A stretch of DNA of 64,000 nucleotides from Isoetes taiwanensis (lineage: Eukaryota > Streptophyta > Lycopodiopsida > Isoetales > Isoetaceae). The notes beneath the pieces are model-generated. The model saw only the letters and a list, made by a program, of their open reading frames with translations. It did no database searches and was not told the DNA's origin. This document shows positions 1 to 64,000 of the stretch, one piece after another. Each line of letters opens with the position of its first letter. The first letter of the stretch is position 1. The translations under genes were made by a program, and so were the position numbers. The stretch covers positions 3,383,622 through 3,447,621 of the forward strand of contig JAJEKV010000054.1 of the NCBI GenBank assembly GCA_021234155.1, given 5' to 3'.

Positions 1-83
1 CATGTGCTACTTCACTGTTCATCATATGCCACATTGCGTGATAAACATGGCATGAAAGCTTATACACTTGCTGAATTTTTTTT

Positions 84-248
84 AACTACCCTGGGGGTGT
101 GATTGGGGCGTATATACTTGATGTTTTGGAGCATAGAGAAAGATGTTTGAAAGCAATGGATGTAAAAGAGGAGGACGAGGAAGAGATTGAGGGGGTTAAT
201 GCATTATTATCCGATGATGCATTAGATGAACTTTTCTATAATTACTAA
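84..248 (+). pseudogene. 3' tail of an unidentified ORF, possibly retroelement
   Basis: An open frame ending at a TAA near 248 encodes an acidic tail (for example LEHRERCLKAMDVKEEDEEE) finishing with DDALDELFYNY. The upstream part runs off the window or is frameshifted in the T-run near 77-85. I do not recognise the family. It lies just upstream of a decayed Ty3-gypsy integrase and could be part of an older element or a separate gene end. Confidence is low. Confidence 0.3.
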
Positions 249-399
249 TGTACTGGTTTGGATGTCTCATAGGCCTGGCGGTCTCACAGACGTAATAATA
301 CAATTTCATTTCATTTCATTTCTCTCTCAGGTCGGCCACATGATCGAAAAAAAATTGTCTCTCGCGCTATATGGCTAGAGACAATTTTTATACCGTATG

Positions 400-1160
400 A
401 CGTGAGAGACTATGAGAGATAATAATCTCTCATCAATCTCTCGTCGCTTAACAGCTGTTAGCCAGAAAAATACCCCTGCGGAGAGATGTCTTGGTTCATA
501 TTCCTCATTATGTCATTTCCCAAAGGATAAAGAAAGCGAACAAGAAACCTCATGGTGTTCCTTTATCCTTACCTATTCTGGAAGCAAAGTGGTAGCAGAT
601 CACTATAGATTTTATTGTTGGTCTTCCCACAAATGCTCGCAAGAATGCTATCATTTGGACGGTTGCTGATTGTTTAACTAAGCACACACATTTCATTCCT
701 TGTTTGGATAAGTCGGCAGCTTATAGTGCGGCTACGCTCTTTATCAAAGAGATATTTAGGCTACATGGGTTGCCTAAGATTGTTGTATCTGATCGTGATA
801 CGAAGTTCACCAGTAAATTCCGAAAGGTATTGTCTATGCAATTGGGAACGGAATTAAGCTTCTTCACTGCTTTTCACCCAGAAACCGATGGACAATATTA
901 GGTGGTAAACAAAGTTATTTGTTCCATCTTAAGGAGGTTTATCAATGAACATCAAGGTAATTGGGAAGACTATTTATGTACAACACTACCTATTAGTCTA
1001 CCATAAAGATGGCTCCATTTCAGGTAGTCTATGATTAGACTATAAGGAAGCCACTCTTTCGAGTGTGTGAGGATGTTCCAGCTGCTAATGATTTAGTTAT
1101 TGAGCATAAGGATCTCATAGACTTGCTTTATGCTTGTATCCGAGATGCTCATGCTTTTTA
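400..1160 (+). mobile_element. Decayed Ty3-gypsy integrase region
   Basis: Translation in shifting frames gives landmarks of a Ty3-gypsy integrase: a stretch after the HHCC zinc module (SQRIKKANKKPHGVPLSLP near 520-580), the core start DFIVGLPTNAR near 608-640, VADCLTKHTHFIP, then LHGLPKIVVSDRDTKFTSKF and TAFHPETDGQ near 758-897. A TAG stop follows at once. Downstream, RKPLFRVCEDVPAANDLV near 1045-1100 matches the segment beyond the catalytic core in plant gypsy polyproteins. Frames change several times and stops interrupt, so this is a dead fragment. No LTRs, reverse transcriptase or protease were seen in the window, so most of the element lies upstream or is lost. Confidence 0.8.
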
Positions 1161-1162
1161 TA

Positions 1163-1193
<31 letters not shown>
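1163..1193. repeat. (CTAT)n microsatellite
   Basis: About 31 bases of uninterrupted tetranucleotide CTAT repeat lie directly after the gypsy integrase relic. It is a simple repeat with no sign of function. Confidence 0.95.
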
Positions 1194-1194
<1 letters not shown>

Positions 1195-1944
1195 GAGGTC
1201 TCTTTGTTTGTCTTCTTTTGTTGTGAAGGATTGCTCATTCAGAGATAGTAGGAGTTTAGTTAGGCAAGTGGTATCTTTGTTGCTCGTTGGTGGCATGAGT
1301 TGATTGTGCAGGTGGCAGTACAACGATATCTCTAAATGTTAGATCAGTTTATATGCTTCATCCATTTATATACGCATACGCGCCAACCTAAGCACCACTC
1401 CAGCAACTCCTGCAAAATCACAACATTTCACCCCTTAATCATGGACATCTCTAGATTAGCACACCTCTGCTTATTTGAGCTTTACTAGCTTAGAGTCTGT
1501 TTGTTGAAGTCTTATGTCTAAAGGTATGTTCTCTTTGGATTACTCTTAAAGATCCATTCATGCATCTCGTGGAAAGGATCTCATAGTTAAAACTTTGACC
1601 GAAGTATTAGTCATGCATTGTAAGTATGCTACTAGTGTAGAGGCCTTGAACCTTATTTGGCTCCCAATTCAAGCTCACCTATGTTCTTCACGCATCAGCT
1701 GGGGGATTGCCATGAGCTGAATAGTGTCATGAACCTACGGGTGGTCGTCACAAATAGAATGCATGGGGCGTGAACTAGTCTGAACTACGAGGTGATTGAC
1801 GCATTTGTTAGGAATGCCATAGAGGGTAAAGATAGAAATTATACTATTAAGAAGGATTAGTGAGTGTTGCTCTTCTTCGTCCGTTAGAAATCATATCTAG
1901 GTTTCAGTCTAAATAGGATCGACCCTTAGTTTTGCTAGTGGACA
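1194..1944. other. Spacer, nothing recognised
   Basis: No open frame with protein-like composition and no structured repeat was recognised between the gypsy relic and the C-rich duplication. Confidence 0.5.
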
Positions 1945-2135
1945 CCTAGGTCATGACTCAGCTAGGTTATTGGAGGTAATACTATGAGCTCTGTGACCTC
2001 CTCCCTCCCTTATCCCCCTCCCCCTCCCTCCCTCCTCCCTAGGTCATGACTCAGCTAGATTTTTGGAGGTAATACTATGAGCTCTGTGGCCTCCCCTCCC
2101 TCCCTTATCCCTCCCCCCCTCCCCGATCCCCTCCC
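1945..2135. repeat. Tandem duplication with C-rich tracts
   Basis: Two copies of a unit beginning CCTAGGTCATGACTCAGCTAG and running through AATACTATGAGCTCTGTG start near 1945 and 2037, about 92 bp apart. Each ends in a C/T-rich tract of CCCTCCC-type runs. The complementary strand carries repeated GGG runs and could form a G-quadruplex. It is probably a local slippage duplication. Confidence 0.85.
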
Positions 2136-2169
2136 CAAACCCCACTCTAAAAAGAGGAGATGGCAGAGC

Positions 2170-2400
2170 TCAATCGTAGAAAGATGACAACGATTGTGCT
2201 AACTGTGTGGTCTGCAAAATAGAGGATGAGGAACATGTATGGAATAGATGTATGACATATGAGCATATAAGAGAGAGGAGCATATAAGAGATAACTGGTA
2301 TAGACTGGTCAGTCAAGGTAGAAAAAGGAACAAGAAGTACCGAAGCGGCAGGAAAAAAAACAAAGGCAATAAAAGAGATATTGTAGAACATGAATCAAAA
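2170..2400 (+). pseudogene. Possible LINE-type C-terminal zinc motif
   Basis: Plus-strand translation contains CANCVVCKIEDEEHVWNRC, a CX2C...HX4C pattern resembling the zinc motif at the C-terminus of plant LINE reverse transcriptases. The frame then holds stops. No reverse transcriptase core was found nearby, so this is a weak family guess based on one motif. Confidence 0.25.
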
Positions 2401-4870
2401 TACAAAGAAAAGAAGACATCAAACAACTTGATCAATGGAACGTGCACCAGTTCTATAAGATCTTCAACGGGTATATAGACATGGAGTGATTGATTTTTTT
2501 TTTCTTTTTATATTTTGGGCCTTCCTTGTCAAGGTCCCCGGTGCTTTAAAATACATCTATGCTAGATGGAAGAGTAAGGAGGTGACCAAGCCCTACAATA
2601 ACCAACAGACAAACATATAAGCAAGAGAATAAGAGGATAGAGTATTTTACCTTCAGAGTGCGCTTATGATGATGCTTTAGCCTACATCATGATCAAATCT
2701 ACGTAAAGTAGGGAGTTGGGTACTAAGCCTCGAGGCCTTTTCCCATCTTTTCTGTATGACAAGAAAGTCACAAACAAGATAAGCAAATTAGATGCAACTT
2801 TGTATGTCCCTTTCCTAAGCTCTCTGATGATAAGATCAGGTTTCAAGACCACATCGCTCACCATAGAGACCATCGTGCTGCTCCAATAGTCCATGGACTT
2901 GCCGACCTCCACCTTGATGATCCAATTGAGCACAGATCTAGGTACCCGAAGTTTGAGACATGGTCTAGTAATCATAGAAGAGATTGAAGATCATTCTTTT
3001 GAAGATGGTTTACAAAGGAAGATCAAAATATATAAGTAGGTTTACAGTATATAATCAAAATACAGTCTTGTTCTTTTATCAAAACGAAGACTAAAGTTCC
3101 AAAAAAGAGAGAGTCAAATGCATATCCATGTTCAAGGATAAGATAAAGGCAATACTATTGGAGGCCAAAATGAATACATCCAATTTAACACTTGCTAGTT
3201 ATTAGACATTTTACAAGTACCCAATATTCAGTATTAAGTACTTTCTTAGGTAAGGTGTAGCATGTGTATACTCTGCTTGTTAGAACTCTTGCAGAGACAT
3301 CAGTCACGTAGAACACCTTCATTGCTTCGTCACCATGTGTGGCCACATGTGCTCTCGTTATAGAGATCTCTCTCACAAAAAACTCGAGTAACATCAGAAC
3401 AACACAACTTTACCATTGGTAAATATCTTAAGCCCGAATCCCTATTTGTCATAAGATACTACATATTTAACCTTGATATTAAGTTCAGAAAACACAAGGA
3501 GCAAGCGTGAGTTGATGTATAGACTTTTTATTGGTAATATACATCATTCAATTGCTTCCCCCTAATATCGGACAACGTGCCCCCTCTGCGACAGATATCT
3601 AGCCTTCATTGCCATGGATATCCAGCCTTTTCAGCTTAGAAGTTTAGCATGCAAAAGAACATGGAAGTTCAGGGCTAGAACTACAAGGGCAACAGAAATT
3701 GGTAGTGGAAAAAAATGAGGAAAAGTGGTCGTGGAGATACTGCTTCAACTGAACTGGATCATAATACTCTGAACCACCAGGCAAAATAAGGGAGTTAACA
3801 GAGGCCATCATACGCCTTGGGTGATGATGCACCCACCTTTGGTAACACTTTTAAGAGAAACATAAGAAGTACCAGTGTTGATATAAATCCATTAGCAATG
3901 GTGAATGCGAATTTGGATGCAATCACGCCAAATGGGTTAGGCAATGGGCAAGTAATGGGCGCACGCTTTAACAATTACTCCCAAGTGCTTTGCCTAGCAC
4001 TTTAACTTCACATTCCATGTCATGAAACATGACAGCTGTGAGAACCCATATTCAAAACTCCATAGTAAGACCGTGGGTGGGTGGGTGGGTGGGTGCTGTT
4101 TTTTACATCATGCCACATTGACAATCCATGAGGACATATGATGGACCCACAGAGACTTGAAGAAAGGTAAAAGCTTATTACTAGAAAGGAGGTTGTTGAA
4201 ATGTCATGTGTTTTGGCCAAGGAGTTTAACAAAATAGTTATGGAAGGTTGTACAATACAAGATTATAACCACCAAGTAATTCAAGGTTTCCTCTTTGGCG
4301 ATTTCTATACTTTAGATGCTAGCTAAAGTGGCGAATTTTCTTTTTTATGCAAGTTGCACCATAATACCAAAGCAAATGTTTGATTAAGGACATAGAAATC
4401 TACAGAAAGACCAATTACAAAAATAATTATATACTTGTTATTGTATATGCAAACACTATATGGAACAATAATTGCTTGTGTTGAATCAATAATTGAGTTG
4501 TTTCAAAAGCCTCAAGATCCATCACTTCATAACTTGATTGGCAACCATGACAGAAAAGGCAGTCACTTTCGCAACAGACATAAATGTAAGCTGGCATTTT
4601 TTTTTACCTCTAAGCCTATGGTGTGTTGCCACGTGGCACACATTCTCTTAGGGAATGCTAGGCTAGATTGATGCTCTTTATTTTTACCTTATCTTCTTAC
4701 ATTTTTACCCTACATTCTATGTTTTACCTGTGACATTTCAGCATAACATACGGTCTGAATACGTAAATTATACTACCACGTCACACATACATGTCACCAT
4801 GACAAGTACTTGAGAGTCGTAAAGAGTTGCGCCTAGGGGGCGACCTCGTATGTTGCACATGTATATTAAA
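2401..4870. other. Spacer, no recognised gene
   Basis: Open frames here are short and lack recognisable motifs. A minus-strand frame at 2682-2975 has fairly protein-like composition but no family that I recognise. Apart from a GGGT repeat at 4073-4095, nothing is called. Confidence 0.5.
4073..4095 (+). repeat. (GGGT)n tract, G-quadruplex candidate
   Basis: Five consecutive GTGGGT-type units give five runs of three G separated by single T bases, a textbook G-quadruplex pattern. No gene is adjacent. Confidence 0.8.
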
Positions 4871-4959
4871 CATATGCAATTAAACCCCCTTGCCAAGTGG
4901 CAAAGCCCCACTGGTCCCTTCTAACCTAAACCTAAAAGTTCATGTAAAAGGAACAAAAG

Positions 4960-5150
4960 GGGAAACCCTAAACCTTTCCCATTTTCGCATTTTGGCTTCC
5001 CTGAGCCATTCCGGTCAAGTCAAGCTGCTATTCTGCATTAATAGGTGCCGCCGAGTCGTGTTTGCACAACAGTTCTCTCAGGAGCAACCGTCTTCAACAA
5101 GAACGAAGGCATGGATGCGATTCGGGGAGTTGGAGCAAGCCAAGGATCAG
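4960..5150 (+). other. Promoter and exon-1-like stretch with telo-box
   Basis: A telo-box AAACCCTAAA (4963-4972), common in plant ribosomal and histone promoters, precedes a possible leader. An ATG at 5111 opens MDAIRGVGASQGS and is followed by a good splice donor (CAG|GTAATC, intron from 5151). I found no convincing downstream exon, so this may be the stranded first exon of a broken gene. No function is assigned. Confidence 0.3.
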
Positions 5151-5373
5151 GTAATCTGCGATTCTGTTGTGCAAAGCCGACTCTTAGCCCGGCAATGAGC
5201 TAGGATAGTATTGTCATGTGCTTATGTTTATTCACGCTTCGATCCATTGCCAAAGGATTGGTATCAGGTGGATGGCCCCTGTCAGCTTGGCTGCAAAGGG
5301 GATGAACTCCGCCTTGCAACACAATGGGAGCATCGTAGAAGAAGTAGGGGACGTCACAGTGGTATCAAAGCAT

Positions 5374-5393
5374 GATCTTGGTAGACCAAGATC
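5374..5393. repeat. Perfect 8-bp hairpin
   Basis: GATCTTGG and CCAAGATC are separated by TAGA. The hairpin lies upstream of the histone-like cassette, just after a sequence resembling a tRNA-Met primer site at 5360-5371. Confidence 0.7.
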
Positions 5394-5577
5394 GGGCACT
5401 GACCATTCCCTGTTAGGACTAACAGTAGACTTTCAGCCTTGGGAATACCAACCCAAGCATGAACCTTGAAAAATTGGGAATTTTTTTTCCAATACTTAGA
5501 GCAGTAAAGTAGGATAATGTTAAGTTAGGAAGAATAGTAGAAAACCCTGAAAAATTCTGGCCATTAGGGAGTGACCC

Positions 5578-5640
5578 CTCACAGAGTGCGCCCCAGGCAT
5601 TTTCAAAAATTTTGAACACGGCTCTCGCGCACTGTGTGAG
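5578..5640. repeat. Cassette hairpin 1 (63 nt)
   Basis: Arms CTCACAGAGTGCGC and GCGCACTGTGTGAG pair over 13 bp around one constant G-G mismatch. A second, inner imperfect stem is centred on TTTTCAAAAATTTTGAA. It is the first of four copies of the same foldback, and with hairpin 2 forms the pair upstream of the H3-like gene. Confidence 0.9.
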
Positions 5641-5790
5641 TGGTTGACCCATTTTGACCTAGATAGATGCATAACTAGAGTAATCTAATAGCTTAGAGTA
5701 GCTTAAAGCTTGAATTTGAGCTAGGAATGTATGTTCTAATACTAAGAAACTGCTTACAAAACTAAAGTTTGAGGAAAAAAAGAGTGACCT

Positions 5791-5853
5791 CTCACAGAGT
5801 GCGCCTTGGGCATTTCCAAAAGTTTTGAGAATGCTTCTTGCGCACTGTGTGAG
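5791..5853. repeat. Cassette hairpin 2 (63 nt)
   Basis: It has the same outer arms and G-G mismatch as hairpin 1, and an inner stem GCATTTCCAAAA / TTTTGAGAATGC. It lies 150 bp after hairpin 1 and about 96 bp before the TATA box of the H3-like gene. Confidence 0.9.
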
Positions 5854-5949
5854 TGATAGGTAATCCAATATATTAATCTAGCAAACACTAATGCTTTACA
5901 TAATGGTATAACATGAAATTGCAGGTCCAAATCCTAAAATTCCCAGACC

Positions 5950-5957
5950 TATAAATA
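5950..5957 (+). promoter_or_regulatory. TATA box of the H3-like gene
   Basis: TATAAATA in the context CCTATAAATAGACC lies 113 nt before the ATG at 6063. Just upstream is TCCTAAAATT, which has a counterpart (CCCTAAAATT) upstream of the TATA box of the second cassette gene. The parallel arrangement supports a real Pol II promoter. Confidence 0.75.
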
Positions 5958-6062
5958 GACCCCTTAGGGTTATTCATTTTCATCTTTCTTCTCCAGCTAG
6001 CTGCCCTCCGGCCAAGAAGGCAAATTTTAGGCGCTCGGAAGGCGTTTGACATATTTCAAAAC

Positions 6063-7143
6063 ATGGCCCGCACCAAACAAACTAGTCGAGTGGTTATGCC
6101 AGACGATTACACCAGCGCCCAAGTTCTTGCAGCTCAACAGAAGGCCAGAGAGGCTCAAGAGCAAGCCAGGAAAGAAGAAAATCCTAACCCTAATCTATAT
6201 GTTGAGGAGGAGGACCAACAGCAACAAGACGAACAAGAACAACCTCAGAACCCTGATGCCCAAGAAAACTCGTAGAATCAGGGAAATGGCCAGGAGAAGG
6301 ACGACGAGGGCGAGCTGATACCAGAGGAACTAGCGCAGCGGCTAAAGAAAATGGCCAAGAGGAAGAAGGCAGCAAAGAGGAAGAGAATTGCAGAGAAGGA
6401 GGAGCGCAGAAGACAAATGAAGGAGCACCAGAAGCAAAGGGGTTACCATAAGGAAGCGGGAGCCCGACAGGCCACCATCCTCTTCCTCAGATATCGAGTC
6501 GGGCGAGGAGGTTACGAGAGTTCCCAGCCCAGCAGAAGGCTCGGGACCTTCAAACCCAGATAACGAGGAGGAAGAATCTGCAATAGCACCTCCATATCTG
6601 AAGTGACTGAAGCCAACAACTGACCACAAGAAGGGCAAACCGGCACGGGAATCCTTCGTACTCAAGCAAGAGCCGGAATACGGGAAGAAGTTGAAGGAGT
6701 ACCAGGAGTACATGAAGATGTACGAGGAGTACTCAAAATACTATGAGGCAAATAAGGTAATGTACGTGGAGGGAGGAAGGCCAACCAAGAAGAATACCCT
6801 AAAGCCGCCCCCAGAGAGACCCGTACCACCTAAGAAACCAATAAAGAGAAAGGCAGACTCCTATTTTGCAAGAGCTGATCGGGAGATTCGACATTTTTAG
6901 AGGAGCTACGGACTGCTAATTCCAAGGGCTGCCTTCGCAAGATTAACCCATGAAATCTTGCAGGAATTTGACAAGACCAAGTGAGTAACAGATGACATGT
7001 TACTTGCATTGCAAGAGGCAGCAGAGCAAAAGTTGGTCCAACACTTCGAAGATTCCCTAGCATGTGCTCTCCATGTGAAGAGAGTCACTTGTATGCCTAG
7101 AGACATGAAGTTAGCTAGGTTCATAAAGAAGGAAGATTGCTAA
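6063..7143 (+). pseudogene. Histone H3-like protein with long insert, degenerate
   Basis: The frame opens MARTKQTSR, matching the histone H3 tail through K4 and R8 apart from Ala7 to Ser; the K9-S10 pair is replaced by VV. A long charged, glutamine- and lysine-rich insert follows (about 260 codons where H3 has about 40). The last 92 codons form an H3 histone fold: REIRHF (alpha N), AFARLTHEILQEF (alpha 1), [17 protein letters not shown] (alpha 2), CALHVKRVT, then [12 protein letters not shown] (alpha 3). The whole spans about 360 codons against about 135 for H3. It is broken by stops at 6273 (TAG), 6604 (TGA), 6898 (TAG) and 6982 (TGA) and by a frameshift between about 6419 and 6441. The histone assignment is from motif order and is strong. 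That the protein entered nucleosomes is inference. The gene has its own TATA box and hairpin pair. Confidence 0.88.
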
Positions 7144-7292
7144 CATGATGTAATTGTGAAAATTTTGTAAATATAAAAAGTCTTTTGATCAAGTTGTGAA
7201 GTGCAAGATTGTAATTAATAGGGTTGTAATAATGGCATGTGCATTTGGAATTAGTTAATTTGGACAAAAATTCACTGTTTTGGGCCCCACCA

Positions 7293-7353
7293 CTCACAGA
7301 GTGCGCCAGGAGCGTTTTCAAAAGTTTTGAGAATGTCTCGCACACTGTGTGAG
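7293..7353. repeat. Cassette hairpin 3 (61 nt)
   Basis: Third copy of the foldback, with arms CTCACAGAGTGCGC and GCACACTGTGTGAG (one extra mismatch) around an inner stem at TTTTCAAAAGTTTTGA. It lies about 150 bp downstream of the H3-like stop and begins the promoter module of the second cassette gene. Confidence 0.9.
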
Positions 7354-7493
7354 TGTTTGGCCACTGATCTTGTCTAGACTTGTCCAAATGTAGAAAGTAA
7401 GGGCATAAACCACCTTAACTCGGCCAGATAAGTAGGATTCTATTTTTAGATTATAATTTTAGAGCCATCTAGGACCCAAACAGGAGCCCACGC

Positions 7494-7556
7494 CTCACAG
7501 AGTGCGCCAGGACCATTTCCAAAAGTTTTGAAAATGCCTCTCGCGCACTGTGTGAG
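7494..7556. repeat. Cassette hairpin 4 (63 nt)
   Basis: Fourth copy, with the same outer arms and G-G mismatch. It lies 140 bp after hairpin 3, nearly the same spacing as hairpins 1 and 2, and about 176 bp before the second TATA box. Confidence 0.9.
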
Positions 7557-7698
7557 CAGTCAGAGTAAGTTAGCCCAAATTCATCCCAATTACCTCCAAA
7601 TTAGATGAAATTTGTTGCAATAGGATCATTAGGATGTACTCTTTAACCTAGATTACCTATCAATTGCATAGCAAGACCTTGAAGTGATAGATATTCTT

Positions 7699-7740
7699 AA
7701 ACCCTAAAATTTTTTCAAATTAGGGTTTTGCCTATAAATA
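7699..7740 (+). promoter_or_regulatory. Telo-box and TATA box of the H2A-like gene
   Basis: A telo-box AAACCCTAA (7699-7707) precedes CCTATAAATA with the TATA box at 7733-7740. The ATG at 7852 is 119 nt downstream, close to the 113 nt of the H3-like gene. Telo-boxes are known in plant histone and ribosomal protein promoters. Confidence 0.75.
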
Positions 7741-7851
7741 TGACCACAACCCTCATTTGCACCCTACTCTATCACTCCTCACTTCAAGGTGATTTTTCAA
7801 CTCCCAGAGGCGCTTCTAGATCTGTTTGATAACCCCATCAGCCTCAACATC

Positions 7852-8005
7852 ATGGCTACCTCTGCATTCAGGCGCACTGCTCATGTGGCTGAGGCTGACA
7901 TCAACTCGGTCTTCATTGTTTTCCAAAAGGAGATCGATGTGGATGCCACCATAAATGCCACAACTTTTTACCAAGAGATCATGATTGAGTTCCATGCCAA
8001 GATTG
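7852..8005 (+). pseudogene. H2A-like histone, N-terminal part, cut by copia
   Basis: ATG at 7852 opens MATSAFRRTAHVAEAD. The segment DINSVFIVFQKEI fits histone alpha 1, and NATTFYQEIMIEFHAKI fits H2A alpha 2 (compare the family pattern of Ala-Thr, Val-Tyr, Ile-Leu-Glu-Tyr). The frame stops being meaningful at 8005, where the Ty1-copia element begins after its GATTG target duplication. The rest of the fold resumes at 13377. The similarity is residue-pattern level and weaker than for the H3-like gene; H2B would be the alternative. Position directly after the H3-like gene with a matching promoter supports a histone identity. Confidence 0.55.
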
Positions 8006-8543
8006 TGTTAGAACTACATGCCTAAGTAATAAATTTGAACAGATGGCAATTAGTTTACATTACACTTGGTTGACATTTATACATGGGTTTTGCATGAAGG
8101 AAAAAGAATAAAAAGAGGGAAGATTAGACGAAAAGGACACAGGAGAAAAACAGAGGAAGAGAACAGGGGTTTTGTTTTTTTTTAAAGCAGGTCGAAAAGG
8201 CTGACGTCGAACTGGCCGGATTTGTCAAGACGTGTTGGGTTGGTGAAGCCGAGTCGTGTATCCGCTCTAAGCTGCCGGATTCCTCGCTCTAAGCTGCCGG
8301 ATTCTTCTTTGTAAGGTGCCGGATTTCTACCGTAGTAAGCTATCAGATTTGGTTATAGATTGCTTTATTTTATATCCCGTGGTGGTTTCGCAAAGAGTCC
8401 GCCTGCGGTAGTATTACGCGGTGGGCATCAATTCGATTTGTGCGGGGAGATCCTTTGTGGATATAAAGAAGGTGTAAGGGAGAAGATTGAACTTGGTTAT
8501 TTTCTGGGTTCAATTCCGGACTCAAAGCTTTTTGATTCTAACA
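8006..8543 (+). repeat. Ty1-copia 5' LTR
   Basis: 538 bp, TGTTAG...CTAACA. It matches the 3' LTR almost perfectly except in about 8215-8520, where nearly every difference falls at a CTG or CAG in the 3' copy that reads as a CG-containing variant here. Confidence 0.97.
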
Positions 8544-8545
8544 TC

Positions 8546-8561
8546 CTGGTATCGAGCTTTT
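8546..8561 (+). promoter_or_regulatory. Ty1-copia primer-binding site
   Basis: TGGTATCGAGCTTTTG begins three bases after the 5' LTR. Plant copia elements usually carry TGGTATCAGAGC, complementary to initiator tRNA-Met; here CAG reads as CG, a one-base loss that may weaken priming. Confidence 0.85.
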
Positions 8562-8576
8562 GAGTCTAAAAGGGAG

Positions 8577-9494
8577 ATGGCATCTAATAAGATTGCCGCT
8601 TCAATACTTCTTTGATGTCAAGGTATATAAAGGAGGTTCTGGTTTCCAAGCATGGAAAATGAAGGTTGAAAAGGCTTTGGAAGCAGAAGGGCTGTGGGAT
8701 TTGGTCCGTCCGGCTCACCGAAAAAGAGAAGCAAAGGCGGGTTTCTATGAAGAATGAAGTGGAGAGTCATCAAAGCCCGAGGTAGCAAATGGAATCGTGA
8801 AAGGCCGCAAAGGATGCCGCAAGAGATTTAGCTCAAGCAAAAGGTATTATCATTTCAAAACTTGGCTATGGTATTATTGCTTCAATTCATAGCATGAATC
8901 CCACGAGATATGTGGCAAAGTATTTGTTGAATGAATATGAGCGACTAAGCGCATCTCGAGAGACATAAATTGGAACAGAATTAAGAATGTTGAAATATGA
9001 AAGTGGTCAAGATTTGATTGAGTTATTTGATAAAATGGATGGAATATTTATGGATTTAGAAGGGGCTGCGCCTCTTTCTGCTCAATCAAAAATACTTTAT
9101 ATTTCAGATGTATTTGCTGCATATGATGAAAATCTTGCATCTTTAATTGCATACTATGTCTAGAACTAAAGAAGAAGCTATAAGTATTGCAAGAACTGAA
9201 ATTACACAAAGAGAGGCTAGAAGGAGTTATGATCAAGGGGGAGATAGTATTTTATATTTTGGGAGAGGAAGAGGTAGAAGTAAGGATGTAATATGCTATG
9301 GTTGTGGAGAGACCGGGCATATTAAGCCCAACTGTACTAAAATCAGAGGACGTTCATGCTATGCTTGTGGAGGAGCTGGCCATCTGGCCAATATGTGTAC
9401 AAAAAGGGGAAGAGGACGTGGAAGTTTTAGGGGATCCTCTACTAGAGGTGCATCCGAAATGTTACTTTTTTCAAAGCCAACCATAGGTCTTTGA
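8577..9494 (+). pseudogene. Ty1-copia gag, frameshifted
   Basis: The ATG at 8577 starts MASNKIAASILL and is cut by a stop near 8613. The typical gag start GSGFQAWKMKVEKALEAEGL follows in another frame near 8638-8697, then MKNEVES and, after more frame changes, SKLGYGIIASIHSMNPTRYV near 8860-8916. The last part (from about 9147) is open and carries two CCHC zinc knuckles, CYGCGETGHIKPNC and CYACGGAGHLANMC, which bind RNA in packaging. At least four frame breaks occur, several at places where a CTG or CAG would be expected. Gag is not translatable from this copy as read. Confidence 0.85.
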
Positions 9495-9573
9495 CGTATC
9501 GAGAAGAAATTTCGAGGAGGAGGTAAAATCATATGCTTTATCAAATTTATGTGATAAAAATGTATCTAACCCC

Positions 9574-11082
9574 GTGGGTTATAGATTTCGAGCTGAAAAA
9601 TCCGTGATGCAAAGTTCAAAGATATTAAGAAATCTTGAGACTAGTAAGCTCAGATGCGTGCGTATGGCTAATGGAGAAAACCAAAATGTAGAAGCTTGTG
9701 GCGTGTTAGAACTCATAGGAGAAAATGGAAAAATTATTACTATTGATAATGTGTTGTGTGTACCAGGGATGATAAAAAACTTAATCTCTGTAGCTGATCT
9801 AGTTGATAAAAATTATAAAGTCTTGTTTGACAAGCATATGTGCATAGTTCATGATAATGGAAAAATAGTATTATATGCAAAAAGAATTGGAAATCGTTTT
9901 GAGCTTTGTCCTAGAAGTATAAACATTCTATTAAGTGAAGTTGGAAAGGAAAACTCAATGGAATTGTGGCATCAAAGATTAGGCCACACAAATTTGAAAA
10001 ATATAATGTTTATGAGAAAACGCAAGCTATTGGATGGTTTAGATTTTGCAGATAATAGTGAAGAAAGCACTCCGTGTCATGGATGCATGTTGGGCAAGCA
10101 AAATAGAAAACCCTTTCCCATGAAGGGTGAACGGGTAAATGAAAAATTAGCCCTAGTCCATTCGGATGTATGTGGGCCTATGAGAGTTAGAAGTGCTAGT
10201 GGAAAATACTATTTTGTGTCTTTTATTGATGACTACACAAGAAAAGCTAAGTGGTACTTCTTAACTCATAAAAGTCAGGTTTTCAACTCATTTAAAGCTT
10301 ATCTTGCAGAAGTAGAACGTGAAACAGGTGCTAAACTAAAATGTTTAAGATCAGATAGAGGGGGAGAGTACTTATCAGATGAATTTAAAAGATTTTGTTT
10401 AGAAACAGGAATCAAAAGACAATTAACTTGTAGAGGTACTCCTCAGCAGAATGGTGTCTCTGAAAGAAAAAATCGAACGGTAATGGAAGCAGCACGAGCT
10501 ATGTTAAAGCATGCAGGTCTTCCAAAGTTTTTGTGGGCAGAAGCTGTAAATACTGCATTCTATGTTCAAAATAAAATTTCAAGCAAAGCCCTAAATGGTC
10601 AGATTCCAGATGAGTTATGGACAGGCAAACGTCAATCAGTAAAACACTTCAAAGTCTTTGGTTGTTTAGCATATTCAAAGGTAATAGCTGACAATATATC
10701 AAAATTGGATGATAGAAGCAGAGAAACATATTTTGTTGGATACGATAAGGAATCAAAAGGGTATAGGCTCTATGATCCAAATAAAAAGGCAGTAATTGTA
10801 AGCCGAGATGTCGTTTTCTTTGAAAATATATTATACAAAGATCGTTTTTTAAGTACTAACAAACAAGATCGAGGTGCAGATAAAGATGCAGATAAAGATG
10901 TTAACTGGGAACCGATAGATTATTTTGATGATGAGGAAGAAAGAACCATTGTCAATCAAGCAGAAGAAGAAGCTGAACAGGAAGGGTTGCGTACGTGCAC
11001 GCGCCTCGTGCACGCTGCGTGCGTGCACTGCGGCTCTGCATACGATAACGGCGGAACCAGCTCCGGAGACAATAAGACGTAG
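9574..11082 (+). CDS. Ty1-copia pol 5' part: protease remnant and integrase
   Basis: The frame is open for 502 codons. The first residues should hold the aspartic protease active site, but the region around 9570-9590 is disrupted by small frame lesions and no intact DSGA-type motif is read. Downstream comes the integrase: zinc module LWHQRLGH...CHGC, then the catalytic triad in HSDVCGP, the aspartate of FIDDYTRK or the later RSDRGGEY, and the glutamate of GVSERKNRT. KVFGCLAYSKV and the following GKQ-type end region are typical of copia integrase. The frame ends in a GC-rich block (10985-11085) with unusual CGTG repeats, where it loses register with the reverse transcriptase frame. In an intact element these would be one polyprotein. 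Confidence 0.93.
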   Translation: MGYRFRAEKSVMQSSKILRNLETSKLRCVRMANGENQNVEACGVLELIGENGKIITIDNVLCVPGMIKNLISVADLVDKNYKVLFDKHMCIVHDNGKIVLYAKRIGNRFELCPRSINILLSEVGKENSMELWHQRLGHTNLKNIMFMRKRKLLDGLDFADNSEESTPCHGCMLGKQNRKPFPMKGERVNEKLALVHSDVCGPMRVRSASGKYYFVSFIDDYTRKAKWYFLTHKSQVFNSFKAYLAEVERETGAKLKCLRSDRGGEYLSDEFKRFCLETGIKRQLTCRGTPQQNGVSERKNRTVMEAARAMLKHAGLPKFLWAEAVNTAFYVQNKISSKALNGQIPDELWTGKRQSVKHFKVFGCLAYSKVIADNISKLDDRSRETYFVGYDKESKGYRLYDPNKKAVIVSRDVVFFENILYKDRFLSTNKQDRGADKDADKDVNWEPIDYFDDEEERTIVNQAEEEAEQEGLRTCTRLVHAACVHCGSAYDNGGTSSGDNKT

Positions 11083-11229
11083 GAGAAGGACTGAAGCTGA
11101 ATTGCTTAGAGAAGGGATATCTTTTGATACTTCACAATATGGAAGGGATGAGACTGGAAGAAGTACTAGGAAAAAGTACTTGTTGAACGCTAAGATACAG
11201 AGGAAAGTGAACAGGTAATTCCTGCTCTT

Positions 11230-12828
11230 ATGTCTGTGTTAGAAATTGATACCCCGAATAACTATAGTGAAGCCGTAGAAAGTCTGGATTCAGATAAATG
11301 GAAAGATGCAATGAATGCAGAATTAAGCTCTTTTGATCGTACAGGAACATATAAACTGGTTGACAGACCTACTAACAGGAATGTTGTTGGGAATAAATGG
11401 ATTTTTAGAATTAAACAGGGGCCAGATGGGCAAACGCAGAAATTTAAAGTCAGACTAGTAGCGAAAGGATTTACTCAAAAGGAAGGTATTGATTATGATG
11501 AAACTTTCTCCCCGATTGTTAAATTAACAAGTGTCAGAGCAATTATGGCTATTGCTAATATGCACAACTTAGAGTTGCATCATATGGATGTTAGCACAGC
11601 ATTTTTAAATGCAGACCTGGATGAAGAAATTTATATGGAGCAGCCTCCTGGATACGAAGTTGATGGAGATAAGGTGTGGAAATTACAGAAGGCAGTGTAT
11701 GGCCTAAGACAAGCTCCACGTCAGTGGTATGTATGTATTGATAATCACTTGAAAACACATGGTTTTGGAAAATTAAATATGGATGGGAATGTCTATATCT
11801 ATAGGGAAAATGAATACTTTTGCATAATTGCAGTATATGTAGATGATTGCGTAATGGCTGCTAACGATATTGATTGTTTAAAGCATTGCAAAGATATTCT
11901 GAATAAAAGGTTTCAAATGACAGACTTGGGGGAACTTAAGCAGTTATTAGGTATGGAAATTCATAGAGATAAAGAGAAGGGATTCATAGCTATTACTCAA
12001 AAAAGAAATATTTTAGGCATGCTTAAAAGATTTGGGATGACAGAATGCAAATCGGCAAATACTCCAGTAGCAACTGGGCAAAGAATCAGCTCTGAGATGT
12101 GTCCCAAAACAAAAGAAGAAGAGCATATCATGATGAATCGACCTTATAGAGAGCTTATTGGATGTCTCCAATACGTATCAGTTTGTACACGTCCTGATAT
12201 TTCATATGGAGTGAATATGTTAAGTCAATTTCTAAATAATCCTGGTGAAGGCCACTGGAAATGTGCGAAACGTATTTTAAGATTTTTGAAAGGCACTCAG
12301 AACTATGGTCTTGTATTCAGATGTAAACATGGTATAAGATTATTACTTGAAGGCTTTGCAGATGCAGATTGGGGAAGTGATCAAGACACTCGTAAGTCAA
12401 GGTCTGGATATGCCTGCTTGCTAGGAGGGTCTGCTATCTCTTGGAAAAGTAAGAAACAAACCTCTATTGCACTTTCTACAGCAGAAGCTGAATATGCAGC
12501 GGTGTCTCTTGCATCTAGAGAAATTGTCTGGCTTAGGCGACTTCTAGCAGAGTTAGGAATTATTCAAGAGGGGCCAACAGCATTATATTGCGATAGTACA
12601 AGTTGTATTGCCATGACTAAGAATCCAGTCTTACATGAAAGAACAAAGCATATTGAGCTACATAATCACTTTGTACGTGATCAAGTAAAGAATGGAGAAA
12701 TAAGTGTCTTGTATAGACCTACTGAGATACAGTGTGCTGACATTCTTACAAAAGCATTAGCAGAATCTAAGTTTAAAGTATTTCAAAAGGATTTAGGAAT
12801 AGAAGAAGTTGGAGCTATTACCACTTAG
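11230..12828 (+). CDS. Ty1-copia pol 3' part: reverse transcriptase and RNase H
   Basis: 532 codons, open throughout. Copia reverse transcriptase landmarks are present in order: NKWIFRIKQGPDG, RLVAKGFTQKEGIDYDETFSP, MDVSTAFLNADLDEEIYMEQ, KAVYGLRQAPRQWY, and the catalytic YVDD in AVYVDDCVMA. RNase H follows with FADADWGSD, ALSTAEAEYAA, LYCDSTSCIAM and the C-terminal ADILTKAL. All expected acidic residues are visible. The start codon is arbitrary because in the intact element this continues from the integrase frame. The stop at 12826-12828 lies just before the polypurine tract. This domain looks enzymatically intact. Confidence 0.96.
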   Translation: MSVLEIDTPNNYSEAVESLDSDKWKDAMNAELSSFDRTGTYKLVDRPTNRNVVGNKWIFRIKQGPDGQTQKFKVRLVAKGFTQKEGIDYDETFSPIVKLTSVRAIMAIANMHNLELHHMDVSTAFLNADLDEEIYMEQPPGYEVDGDKVWKLQKAVYGLRQAPRQWYVCIDNHLKTHGFGKLNMDGNVYIYRENEYFCIIAVYVDDCVMAANDIDCLKHCKDILNKRFQMTDLGELKQLLGMEIHRDKEKGFIAITQKRNILGMLKRFGMTECKSANTPVATGQRISSEMCPKTKEEEHIMMNRPYRELIGCLQYVSVCTRPDISYGVNMLSQFLNNPGEGHWKCAKRILRFLKGTQNYGLVFRCKHGIRLLLEGFADADWGSDQDTRKSRSGYACLLGGSAISWKSKKQTSIALSTAEAEYAAVSLASREIVWLRRLLAELGIIQEGPTALYCDSTSCIAMTKNPVLHERTKHIELHNHFVRDQVKNGEISVLYRPTEIQCADILTKALAESKFKVFQKDLGIEEVGAITT

Positions 12829-12832
12829 GCAT

Positions 12833-12843
12833 GAGGGGGAGAT
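12833..12843 (+). promoter_or_regulatory. Polypurine tract
   Basis: GAGGGGGAGAT directly precedes the TGTTAG start of the 3' LTR and is the expected primer for plus-strand synthesis. Confidence 0.9.
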
Positions 12844-13376
12844 TGTTAGAACTACATGCCTAAGTAATAAATTTGAACAGATGGCAATTAGTTTACATTA
12901 CACTTGGTTGACATTTATACATGGGTTTTGCATGAAGGAAAAAGAATAAAAAGAGGGAAGATTAGACGAAAAGGACACAGGAGAAAAACAGAGGAAGAGA
13001 ACAGGGGTTTTGTTTTTTTTTAAAGCAGGTCGAAAAGGCTGACGTCGAACTGGCCGGATTTGCTGAAGACGTGTTGGGTTGGTGAAGCCGGAGCTGTGTC
13101 TGCTCTAAGCTGCCGGATTCCTGCTCTAAGCTGTCGGATTCTTGCTGTAAGGTGCCGGATTTCTACTGTAAGCTATCAGATTTGATTATAGATTGCTTTA
13201 TTTTATATCCTGTGTGGTTCTGGCAGTAGTCCAGTTCTGTGTAGTATTCTGTGTGGGCATCAATTCGATTTGTGCAGGGAGATCCTTTGTGGATATAAAG
13301 AAGGTGTAAGGGAGAAGATTGAACTTGGTTATTTTCTGGGTTCAATTCCCAGACTCAAAGCTTTTTGATTCTAACA
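12844..13376 (+). repeat. Ty1-copia 3' LTR
   Basis: 533 bp, TGTTAG...CTAACA, followed by the target duplication GATTG. It retains CTG and CAG trinucleotides that are altered in the 5' LTR and so probably shows the less damaged sequence. Confidence 0.97.
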
Positions 13377-14739
13377 GATTGGCCTTCTCTAATAAACTCC
13401 CCCCATGCATAGGTTATTTTGCACCTAGAACAGCCCTCCGTGCAGCTCTGGATGATATCCCAAATATAGACAAGTATCTAGAAAGTAAAGCTGCTCGCAT
13501 GCCAAATTACATGACTATATCCATAAGTAGAAAGAGATATTTCTCCTACACTGTAGCTGTAGCTATCTTTTTGTCCCAAAGAGCCCAAACCCAGATAGGG
13601 GAACCTTCCGTTCGGCCTCTGGAGATTGAACCCATAGCCACAGAAGCAGAAGCAAAAGAGCAAATGCTCCTGGAGTATGAAGAGTCAGAACAGGAGAAAG
13701 AGGTAGAGGAAGGACAGGGTTACGACGTGAAAGACATCATCCACATCGACCCCATACAAGAAAGGCAGCAAGCAGAAGAAGATCTTCCAAGCTTCGAAGA
13801 AGGGTTGAGAGTAACAAGGACAGCTCCTCCACTTGGGTTAGGCATCACCAGTCTAACCCCAGTCATCATCCAAGGAGAGGAGTACCTGACGCTCCATGAT
13901 ATAAAGAACCTCTCAGAGTGCAGAGACAGGGTGGATGAACTCCTGCACCTTCTATGCCAACAGCCCGACCTTGACGACTTCATCGACCGGGAGACTCAAG
14001 ACTTTCCCATCAGCATCAGGGAGGCCCACACGTACTCTAGCCAGTCATCATCGGACATCGAAGCTTAAACCAGCATCCGACAGATGATGACGCAACAATA
14101 GCTACCCTTGGAGGAGAAATTTATAGCACTCCAAGAGTGGATGGGCATCAGAGGAAAAACAACAAGCGCACTCCTGCCCAGCACCTCTGCAGTAGCGCCA
14201 ATTGGATTAGAAAGAAGCGGCATCAACTTGACCTCTTTCAGGTCCATGTTCGGCGACTACAGAGAAATGATAGCAATACCGGTTGATGAGTACTCTGGAA
14301 GACACAGGGCTGGAATAGAACCGGAGAAGAAACAGTGGAGGGAGGACACGACAAAGCCCTCAGAATATACCTGCCACTCCTCACCGACGGAAGGATAGCG
14401 GTTATACACCGCCAGTTTAGCCCACGGGGAGAAGAAGGAGTCTTCATGATGATTGCCCTCTCGGGATTTGGAAGGCATGATCAGATGCCTCCAAACATCG
14501 GCCATATCATCCTGGTCAAAAGGACAATAGATTTGAGCGTTTCCGACTTCGCAGTTCTATATAGCAAGTTGGCCGTCACTGCAGTCTACACGTCGGATAG
14601 AAGGATCGAAGACCTGGTGACGGCACTCCAAGGTGGTACGGCCACCAACATCCTTGTAAACTTGGGGCGAACAGCTGGCACAGCCCAAGTGAAGAAATTC
14701 TTGGAAGACAACCCGACATATAGAAGATTCCAGGACTAG
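13377..14739 (+). pseudogene. H2A-like histone, C-terminal part with long extension
   Basis: Resuming after the copia element, the frame reads LAFSNKLPPC and then APRTALRAALDDIPNIDKYL, which fits the H2A L2 loop and alpha 3 pattern (PRH-QLAVRNDEELNKLL in canonical H2A). A 400-codon extension follows: an acidic, glutamate-rich stretch (about 13620-13800), then a segment with EKFIALQEWMGI and, after a frameshift near 14335, a globular-looking end (YLPLLTDGRIAVIHRQFSP to VKKFLEDNPTYRRFQD). In-frame stops lie at 14066 (TAA) and 14099 (TAG). Left and right parts also differ by a frame at the insertion junction. I do not recognise the extension; it does not look like a macro domain. The histone call is moderate. 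The reading as one gene rests on frame continuity across the two stops. Confidence 0.5.
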
Positions 14740-14899
14740 ATTAAAACTTATCTTGTACTTGTATTACCATGTAGATGATGATGATGGATGGACCACCCAT
14801 CATGGTGATATATTATTTTGAGCATCAGTGCTGTGTGCTAATATGTATGTACGCTTCCGTTGTATAGGACTCCCATAGAGGGCGTGGGACGAATGACAC
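14740..14899. other. 3' region of the cassette
   Basis: AT-rich stretch with a GATGATGATGATGG run, no gene. It probably holds the 3' untranslated region of the second cassette gene. Confidence 0.4.
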
Positions 14900-14955
14900 C
14901 TCCGTGTTCCTCACTCGGACACTTGGCCATCCCAAGTGGTCCGAGTTAGACGGAG
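14900..14955. repeat. Long stable hairpin at the cassette 3' side
   Basis: CTCGGACACTTGG (14914-14926) pairs with CCAAGTGGTCCGAG (14932-14945), and outside it CTCCGT pairs with ACGGAG. A second palindrome, TACGATGGGAGCATCGTA, lies at 14995-15012. These may mark the 3' end or boundary of the cassette; no sequence shared with the 5' hairpins was seen. Confidence 0.8.
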
Positions 14956-15019
14956 GGTATGTAGTTGCCACGGGAGGGGAATTCCCCGTATTTGTACGAT
15001 GGGAGCATCGTATAGATTC

Positions 15020-15800
15020 TGGGAGCATCACAACTTAAAGAAAGACACCTTAGTTGGTACTAGTTTGATAGATATGCATGGTAAATTTGGCTCTATGATA
15101 TATACTGCAAGTCTGATTGATATACATGCAAGATGTGGATTGTTTGCAGAGGCAAAAAATGTTTTTTACAACTGTCATTACCAAAACGTGAATCTTATTA
15201 GGATATGTTGACATAACCAATAGGCACTAAATTATTCTATGCAGATGCAAGTGCAAGAGGTTTTTTTAGATGCTATTACATTGTTTACGGTTTGAAAGTC
15301 TGCAACACCTTATAAATGTAGATCAGGGGTGAAATATACATGAGGAGGATGGGATCACTTCCAAGAAATTTAAAGACAATGCTTTTGCTAACAGTGCACA
15401 GTGAAATGTTGGTTATATGCCCGTATATGTGGATGCACATAAGGTATTTGTCAAGCTTACAAGCTGGAATGGTGTTCATGAGTATACTTATGGGTTATTG
15501 TGGTGATGGACATAGTGAAGAAGCTCTGAGATGTCTTGAAGCTATGCATGTAGAGGCATATCCAAATGTTGTCACTTTTCTTTCCAGCCTAAAAGCTTGC
15601 CGCAACATGAGAAACATAGAAAAAGAACGAGAAGTACACAATGACATTTCACAAAAAGGATATATTTTGATGGTTGTTGGCAGTACATTGATTTATGTAT
15701 GCAAAATGTGCTTCAATAGGAGAGGCACATAAAGTTTTCAATGATATAGCAATTCGAAATATTGTTCCATCAAATGCAATGATAAGAGCATTTAGTATGA
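15020..15800 (+). pseudogene. PPR protein relic
   Basis: Pentatricopeptide landmarks appear in changing frames: KKDTLVGTSLIDMHGKFG and ASLIDIHARCGLFAEAKNVF near 15040-15165, then MGYCGDGHSEEALRCLEAM (about 15490-15550), PNVVTFLSSLKACRNM, EVHNDISQKGY and VVGSTLIYV, and EAHKVFNDIAIRN near 15725-15760. These match plant PLS-type PPR repeats used in organelle RNA editing and processing. Several frame changes and a missing start show that it is a dead copy. It lies directly after the histone-like cassette. Confidence 0.85.
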
Positions 15801-16229
15801 ACTAAGTTCAAATTCCTAGCACGAATCAAATTCTTTACGCAAACAACAGGTCACTATGCTTGCATGGTGGGCATTCTTGCACGCTATTAAAAATAAAATA
15901 AAAGAAGAAACTAGTCAAAAGCACGTTTGATTACTTTGTATAGCAAATTGTAAGATATGGTGTGGGTGGTGCTTTTGAGTTGTTCCAGCAAGTGCCTTAG
16001 CATTTGGCTTCGTTGCACAAATGCCAAAATGTAGCATGTCCTGATAAATGCTGGAGGCAATGGAACTCTTTCCAAAGATATTCTCTTGGAATGTGTTTCC
16101 TTTAAATTGTGAAGACCTAGAGCACATATTATTACAGTTCTTTCACTTGATATGATTTAGATGCCACATCACAAGTCAAAGCTATTTATGCTTATATTCT
16201 ACTAGAAAAAGTGCCCAGCATTGCTGGGC

Positions 16230-61990: not shown

Positions 61991-64000
61991 TCTAGCCCTC
62001 TTGTTGTTCAAGCATATGCCATTCCTCTGGTCTGTGCCCATTTTTTGATATGTTGTTCAATCATCAGTTTTATTTGTTAAGTGATTTCAGTCTGCCGTGA
62101 TTGTATCTTTTCCCTTCATACCCATTGTAATTTGGTTGCGTTCTATGTATTTTTGGAAGAATATTACTCGGTGGTTAATTTGTGACCGTAGAATTAGCAA
62201 TGAGCTATAAATTACAAGACATAAATTAGTACATTCTGGATGTGGATGGGTTGAAACATCAAATTGTCTCTAATGGTGGAGCTTCTTCAGAACACCGCCT
62301 CGACTCGGATTCTTCCTATCGGCGACCCAATAAGGGATGCACAATGTAACATTCGTATATTAATACATATTCTCTTAGCATGCCGCCGAAATTCAAATTA
62401 TTACGATTAAAATTTCAACACAAACCCATCTGCCTAGCCTTCTTCCCAACCCTGCAGTTCTGCTAGTTTCTATATTTTTGGGTTGCCCCTAAAGGGGCAA
62501 ACTCTCCTTGATGTGGGTTTTTGGCATATTCTAGGTATATGCCAGTATATACCTGGAACATCCCGAAAACTGCTCCAAACTTGGTATTGCAGGTATTTTT
62601 CCGGTCACCCCTGTTGCTGCCTGAGCCTGTCACCCGCTATTAAAACCATTTAACCAGCAAGTTCTTATCTTTGAGTGGTATGTATATTTATGAGAAGCTA
62701 AAAGACTACATTACCGAGATAGAGTGAAAAGAGTTGGTGTAGCGACTTGAAGAAATGAAATATCAACTCTATAAGGAATGGTGCGAAATCTTCCGACATG
62801 GTCGGGGACTTCTTTGGGATGGGACTGTTCGCACAAGCAAAACGGCATACCGACATATTCAATCAAACAAGACCATAGAGTTGCGCCCAACATGGGCCAA
62901 GGATTATTTTCAAAAAGGGTTAGCCATCATCTCACTAACAATTGTAGGATTGATGTGCAACTTTGTGATATGAACTAGGATCTCTAGAATTTCTTTCTGT
63001 GACATGTAGCTTTATTTTCTCGCGTTAGTTCCTTTTCATGTATCAGACATTCTTATTTTCTTATTTCAAGCAAAATGCCTCAACTTGGCAGGCGTGACTA
63101 TACCAAAGTAGCGCTATGGTGACTATTAACATATATTCAAAGGGAGGCCAAGAAGATAATGTTAAGTGTTGACTTCGGGGAGACCCCTGGTTGCTTCTTG
63201 TTATTTGCACAATGTTGCTTTGCTTCAGCGCATAGGAGTTCCCAATGGAAGGATGCGAGCCAGAAACATACAGGGAAGGAGTATGTCAGACATGGATGTC
63301 TACCTTAACCTCATGAGCTAGGGTCAGAGAGCATAATCCTTTGTCGAAAGGAGAATCCATAGCAACACATGAGCGCATAGAAATCGGAGGGAAGACCACC
63401 ACGGTCTTGCAGCCTAGCAGCTCAAGCAGATGTCAAACAACATCAACAAAGTGAGCAACCAAGCTAGACAACTACACAAAGCACCCAAGGCCAACCATGA
63501 CGAGCTTCCAAAACTCTTATACCAGTATGAATACTTTAATGACTTCATCCGTTACAAAAATAGGAAATCATAATGGAGGAAGGAGAGGAGACACATATTA
63601 GCGGAAGACCATCTCCGACTTGGAGGCCTATGTCAGCATCGGGGCAAGTTCAAGGAGGAGGATATTCTGATATTCTGTTCGAACAAGAGTTCCAGATCTA
63701 GAAATGCCTCGGAACCAAAGGAAAAATGACTTCAGTGCTTCAGCCAAGTAGTTAGAGACTCGAGTGGACCGAACCCAAAGGTCGGAGGAGTCGACCTAGC
63801 CAGCAGCTATAGATCACTCAAACGCAACCAGGATGAGTTATGGCATGTACAATTGTGATGACCACACTTCCAGGCATCTGAGAGGCATCTCGCCACAAAA
63901 TAAAGTCCAAGAAACAGGAATCACACTCACAAATTTAGCTTGCGGAGAAATGACACCATCTACCTACTGCACATCATTCACATGATTTTTTCAGTTATTG
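61991..64000. other. Spacer, no recognised gene
   Basis: A plus frame at 62778-62978 (MVRNLPTWSGTSLGWDCSH) and broken plus-strand text near 63430-63570 (NNINKVSNQARQLHKAPKAN) have protein-like composition but no family that I recognise. They may be old transposon coding pieces. Confidence 0.4.

Follow-up and report, generated by a model that had tools for sequence, protein, structure and literature searches.

A gene that starts as histone H3 and ends as histone H3, with a long unrelated stretch between, could be a variant of the host's own H3, a histone that a mobile or viral element has taken up, or a match arising by chance. One such gene lies in the window analysed here, a 64-kb stretch of plant DNA, and raises the question of whether it was ever a single protein and to what it belonged.

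The chimeric H3 gene

An initial annotation had placed at 6063..7143 an H3 gene with a long charged insert between tail and fold, and these coordinates proved right. Reading begins in frame 0 with the ATG at 6063, passes into frame 1 at about 6440-6441 and stops at the TAA of 7141-7143. The following parts can be distinguished.

6063..7143, + strand: ORF1, decayed chimeric histone H3 gene, with four in-frame stops (TAG 6273, TGA 6604, TAG 6898 and TGA 6982) and one frame switch near 6441
6063..6089, + strand: H3 N-terminal tail MARTKQTSR, 8/9 identical to H3, with K4 kept; the likeness stops before K9
6090..6831, + strand: insert of ~247 residues, or 264 when everything before REIR is included, in acidic/Gln-rich, basic, acidic and Tyr-rich blocks
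6832..7140, + strand: KKP stretch, then the histone fold; the REIR of the fold starts at 6880 and the Pfam match at PPKKP

The product, of ~360 residues, is a single protein across the frame switch and the four stops. The gene is broken, and we recognised no intron in it. The tail, read as that of H3 in the initial annotation, sits at a start codon and is the sole 9-residue window with 8/9 matches to the H3 N-terminus when all such windows are scanned in a six-frame translation of the 64-kb stretch, where the next best has 7. We also observed HARTKQTAQ at 37684-37710 on the minus strand, with 7/9 matches and without a start codon; no histone fold was noticed by eye in the translations nearby, and this is probably a chance match.

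The H3 assignment of the C-terminal part held equally well. It matches the Pfam Histone family (PF00125) with 68 bits, where the cut-off is 26.4 (E 1.1e-18), and an attempted refutation by profile over 6868-7143 failed, as this region gave a significant Histone score. In a PDB search with the fold, the best of the matches listed (60 of 180 distinct sequences with E up to 1) are H3 chains, from E 1.1e-18. The alignment to a plant H3.1 sequence is ungapped over H3 residues 49-134, with 42/84 residues identical (50%) once the two of 86 columns that are stops had been set aside. By segment, identity is 5/8 in the αN part, 6/15 in α1, 1/6 in loop 1, 15/30 in α2, 5/6 in loop 2 and 6/12 in α3. Seven of ten positions of the H3-H3' bundle are identical and one changes from K to R. 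A similar comparison at DNA-contacting K/R positions, 11 of them readable, gave five identical, three K/R swaps and three lost. The chaperone site at H3 87-90 is altered and reads DMLL. AlphaFold without an alignment produced a poor model of 6784-7140 (mean pLDDT 57.5); the top 14 rows of a Foldseek search with it were nucleosome entries, and with E values of 0.011-0.23, none below 0.001, and a TM score of ~0.3 this adds little.

Allowing at most one frame switch, the ORF1 path contains 4 stops, where dinucleotide shuffles contain 10.3 ± 2.0 and 0/300 have as few as 4. The insert taken alone (6090-6867) contains 2 stops compared to 5.8 in shuffles, with 5/300 reaching 2. This scarcity of stops identifies ORF1 as a decayed gene, in which the insert was most likely translated together with the tail and fold. 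A chance match was rejected on the combination of tail, fold and open path. A processed H3 retrocopy, with unrelated DNA inserted between tail and fold and a long path left open by chance, is highly improbable. H3 retrocopies are common, and a broken gene with no recognised intron would fit such an origin, but the insert is poor in stops and open with the tail and fold across one frame switch, and a fold this far from H3.1 is too divergent for a recent retrocopy.

The 264 residues between the tail and REIR contain 20% K/R and 19% D/E in alternating blocks, in agreement with the charged insert first described; they are mixed in charge and probably disordered. In a Pfam profile search the insert gave no family above cut-off; weak matches to CDC45 and Nop53 fell below their cut-offs, look compositional and were rejected. 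The H3 tail segment with K9, K14, K18, K23 and K27 is missing, and ~247 unrelated residues stand instead. KKP at 6832-6840 resembles H3 K36-P38, at 13 residues from REIR compared to 10 in H3. If the two correspond, a register that is not certain, the insert would take the place of H3 residues 9 to ~35.

A long variable tail on a divergent fold is also found in plant CENH3, and Arabidopsis CENH3 (HTR12) shares with ORF1 the MARTK start and REIRHF- and LLIP-like motifs. CENH3 is distinguished by a longer loop 1 and a tryptophan at the start of α2. In ORF1, loop 1 has the H3 length, the α2 tryptophan is absent, gaps are needed against CENH3 and the N-terminus reads ARTKQT as in H3, rather than the ARTKH of CENH3. 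BLOSUM62 scores of the fold were 185 ungapped to H3.1, 165 gapped to CENH3 (HTR12) and 146 gapped to human CENP-A. We rejected a CENH3 identity on the loop-1 length and the missing tryptophan; the CENH3 sequence itself matched H3-type chains. Judged by its residues, the ORF1 fold is H3-type and diverged in its own way.

Palindromes, TATA boxes and a second gene

ORF1 is followed by a second broken gene, ORF2, and the two have a common upstream series, in which two similar palindromes are followed by a TATAAATA box and then the ATG.

5569..5855, no strand assigned: the two palindromes that precede ORF1 (5569-5642, 5782-5855), with arms CTCACAGAGTGCGC / GCGCACTGTGTGAG
5950..5957, + strand: TATA box TATAAATA, 113 bp upstream of the start codon of ORF1 (6063)
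7284..7558, no strand assigned: the two palindromes that precede ORF2 (7284-7357, 7485-7558)
7733..7740, + strand: TATA box TATAAATA, 119 bp upstream of the start codon of ORF2 (7852)
7852..8005, + strand: first piece of ORF2 (MATSAFRRTAHVAEADINSVF...), interrupted by a Copia element
13379..14739, + strand: remaining pieces of ORF2, with stops at 14066 and 14099 and a frame switch near 14336; ~450 residues, no Pfam family
63499..63919, + strand: decayed ORF2 relative, corresponding to ORF2 residues 238-375; 45/138 identical, 7 frame changes, 2 stops

The hairpins reported in the cassette are thus real and form four copies of one repeat. The 14-nt left arm is identical in 4/4 palindromes, with one change in one right arm, and mean column identity among the four is 85%; similarity is much lower in the spacers that separate the palindromes. 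None of the 22 predicted pairs is changed on both sides among the four copies, and the outer arms hardly vary. These results do not support an RNA hairpin under structural selection and fit a protein-binding DNA site better; a DNA-binding protein of the element or of the host probably recognised the palindromes. An Rfam gathering search found no match within the window. A third TATA-like match lies at 7172, just behind ORF1, with no palindrome pair before it and no ORF directly after. Downstream of ORF2, at 14899-14956, is a strong imperfect inverted repeat (CCTCCGT...CTCGGACACTTGG / CCAAGTGGTCCGAG...ACGGAGG) that is unlike the four palindromes.

The Copia element that cuts ORF2 occupies 8006-13376, with the 5-bp duplication GATTG on both sides, pol in two long ORFs and a broken gag region. 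Its LTRs share 219 identical bases; in total, 15 mismatches and 30 gap columns occur over 556. The differences form a dense patch at ~8225-8435 and often fall on a CTG of the right LTR, and this looks like a local base-calling or assembly error. So odd a difference between left and right LTR makes local assembly errors possible, and some of the breaks in ORF1 might be of this kind.

The long right part of ORF2 contains 2 stops against 12.9 in shuffles, with 0/300 reaching 2. ORF2 has no Pfam family and no PHROGs family, the latter searched with two ORF2 pieces only in a collection that covers viruses of prokaryotes. With the C-terminal piece, a PDB search returned one match only (E 0.91), a GTDB scan returned nothing, and AlphaFold without an alignment gave a poor model (mean pLDDT 39.5). 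The relative at 63499-63919 has a frameshift-tolerant protein score of 107 to ORF2, compared to 37.7 ± 4.6 in 200 shuffles (maximum 55). When 66 stretches per strand were scanned in this way, the overlapping stretch at 62300 (+) scored 101 and all others at most 51 (+) or 47 (-). Plain tblastn gave E 0.17-0.81, and at the DNA level the relative was indistinguishable from background, with a score of 46 where shuffles reached up to 48 and another window stretch 46. Of these comparisons, the frameshift-tolerant one of proteins is the sole one to bring it out clearly. With this more decayed relative, 49 kb away, ORF2 is a repeat family. The second relic lies at the right edge of the window, within 62690-63919, where an upstream coding-like stretch (...KEWCEIFRHGRGLLWDGTVRTSKTAYRHIQSNKTIELRPTWAKDYFQKG...) gave no Pfam match. 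We saw no second copy of ORF1 outside the cassette (stretches scanned: best 57, means 36-37), and none near the second ORF2. Elsewhere the window contains a PPR-like repeat (below the Pfam cut-off), a ribosomal L6-family protein and a UCH + zf-UBP gene, which together with the Copia element point to a land plant as host; at 1-1320, decayed remains of a Ty3/Gypsy-like integrase can be read from the sequence.

The gene could instead be a divergent host H3 variant, for example a long-tailed histone that is lineage-specific or CENH3-derived; it would have decayed among repeats, with the palindromes and ORF2 as unrelated neighbours. Host H3 variants with altered tails are known, the REIRHF and LLIP..AF motifs resemble those of Arabidopsis CENH3, and a single ORF1 copy was seen. 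Against this stand the palindrome-TATA series common to ORF1 and ORF2 and the repetition of ORF2, and against its CENH3 form the H3-length loop 1 and the higher, ungapped score to H3.1. We consider a host variant rather unlikely.

The description of a divergent H3 with tail, insert and fold in that order, lying in a cassette, is supported. The initial annotation had left two origins side by side, capture by a mobile or viral element and a new divergent H3 family. Capture is the better supported, because the palindrome module precedes two ORFs and a second ORF2 copy is present in the window. In its appearance the two-gene cassette resembles a mobile element more than a normal locus for histone genes.

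Class of element and known captured histones

Three features bear on an LTR origin.

5154..5358, + strand: possible 5' terminal repeat, weak, ending one base before the primer-site-like motif
5360..5371, + strand: primer-binding-site-like TGGTATCAAAGC (initiator tRNA-Met type)
14847..15032, + strand: possible 3' terminal repeat, weak; the end of its 5' counterpart (5358) aligns with 15032

The motif and the flanking repeats, which are weak, are no more than suggestive of an LTR element. The repeats score 45 (5190-5359 against 14740-15100), a value reached by 5/500 shuffles, and by hand estimate up to ~0.5 near-matches of the TGGTATCAAAGC type are expected per window by chance. Directly after the motif, at 5374-5391, is a short perfect hairpin, ATCTTGGTAGACCAAGAT. 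No target-site duplication was seen around the ORF1-ORF2 cassette and no inverted left-right match at its flanks. Within 1-16000 we found no inverted pairs of at least 30 nt except the palindromes, in a search that would miss repeats of 10-20 nt. ORF1 and ORF2 contain no reverse transcriptase, integrase, transposase, capsid, gag or pol family in Pfam, so that an LTR retrotransposon would here have to be non-autonomous.

A separate TATA box for each ORF is unusual for an LTR element and more virus-like, and leaves a virus-like cassette open. We considered an endogenised DNA virus, small or fragmentary, whose only histone would have been a long-tailed H3 comparable to the single viral H3s already described. 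Single H3s occur in Manila clam xenomavirus, Dishui Lake phycodnavirus and NCLDV genomes (PMC9145170). As in ORF1, they lack the other core histones, and they are thought to pair with host histones; of six described, three have extended tails, with gains of 35, 53 and 68 residues (PMC9145170). In ORF1, by contrast, ~247 residues are changed within the tail, after an end that retains K4, and identity of the fold to H3.1 is 50%, compared to 73-87% between the folds of the three lengthened viral H3s and the H3 of a possible host (PMC9145170). No viral family was recognised in ORF1 or ORF2, and no viral hallmark genes beside the H3, but ORF2 has no family of any kind. Scans of IMG/VR with the ORF1 fold, the ORF2 C-terminal piece and the palindrome returned nothing, which says little as canonical H3 also returned none. 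Such an endogenised virus seems to us distinctly unlikely.

With moderate confidence we favour a dead multigene mobile element, LTR-type or virus-like, in the plant genome, which carried its own chimeric H3 behind a TATA box. This explanation draws on a single coding path that holds both the tail and the fold of H3, on the positions kept in the H3-H3' bundle, on the palindrome pairs and near-equal TATA-to-ATG distances shared by ORF1 and ORF2, on the ORF2 relative at a distance, and on the primer-site-like motif directly after a weak terminal repeat. It is weakened by the single ORF1 copy seen, by the weakness of the terminal repeats and by the lack of a mobile-element family in ORF1 and ORF2.

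Histone capture is already known, both by transposons in fungi and by DNA viruses whose hosts are animals, algae or protists. A hAT DNA transposon captured H3 in fungi of the genera Pseudocercospora, Cercospora and Sphaerulina, and in P. fijiensis an H3-like sequence is found in 471 repeat elements of the hAT family with inverted repeats and a transposase (PMC6710886). The likeness to our cassette is an H3 sequence on a mobile element that was later broken by mutation. The differences are that one copy is seen here, with a highly diverged H3, a long in-frame tail insert and its own TATA box, and that hAT has a transposase whereas none was recognised in ORF1 or ORF2. None of the captured and viral histones described in the passages drawn on from PMC6710886 and PMC9145170 has the ORF1 layout. 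A plant mobile-element H3 with K4 kept and K9-K27 swapped out was absent among the matches listed in our literature searches.

A possible role for the chimeric H3

The gene would derive from a host H3. Its product consisted of the first eight H3 residues with K4, ~247 residues in place of the K9-K27 segment, and a complete H3 fold. Judging from the interface residues that the fold retains, an intact product may have been able to pair with H4, presumably that of the host, and to become part of nucleosomes. Ordinary deposition and DNA wrapping appear doubtful, because of DMLL at 87-90, the poorly kept loop 1 (1/6) and the changes to some DNA contacts. A bracovirus H4 with an extended tail enters host nucleosomes and alters host expression (PMC9145170).

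What the element might have gained would lie in the exposed end, which keeps A1-T6 including K4 while K9 and K27 are absent. K9 and K27 are the sites of the main silencing marks in plants, and the K4 end is read and written by enzymes of active chromatin. An H3 able to bear the K4 mark but offering neither silencing site may have benefited the element, if it served to pack or mark the element's own chromatin. The simplest use would be silencing-resistant chromatin on the element's own DNA; alternatively, the long insert may have carried a tether. That this H3 was built for escape from silencing, with the K4 end and fold kept, K9-K27 swapped for a long disordered domain and the element's DNA marked or coated as active, is a tentative idea that we regard as improbable at present. 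If intact copies exist, they would allow a direct test of whether selfish DNA fights plant chromatin silencing with a nucleosome part of its own.
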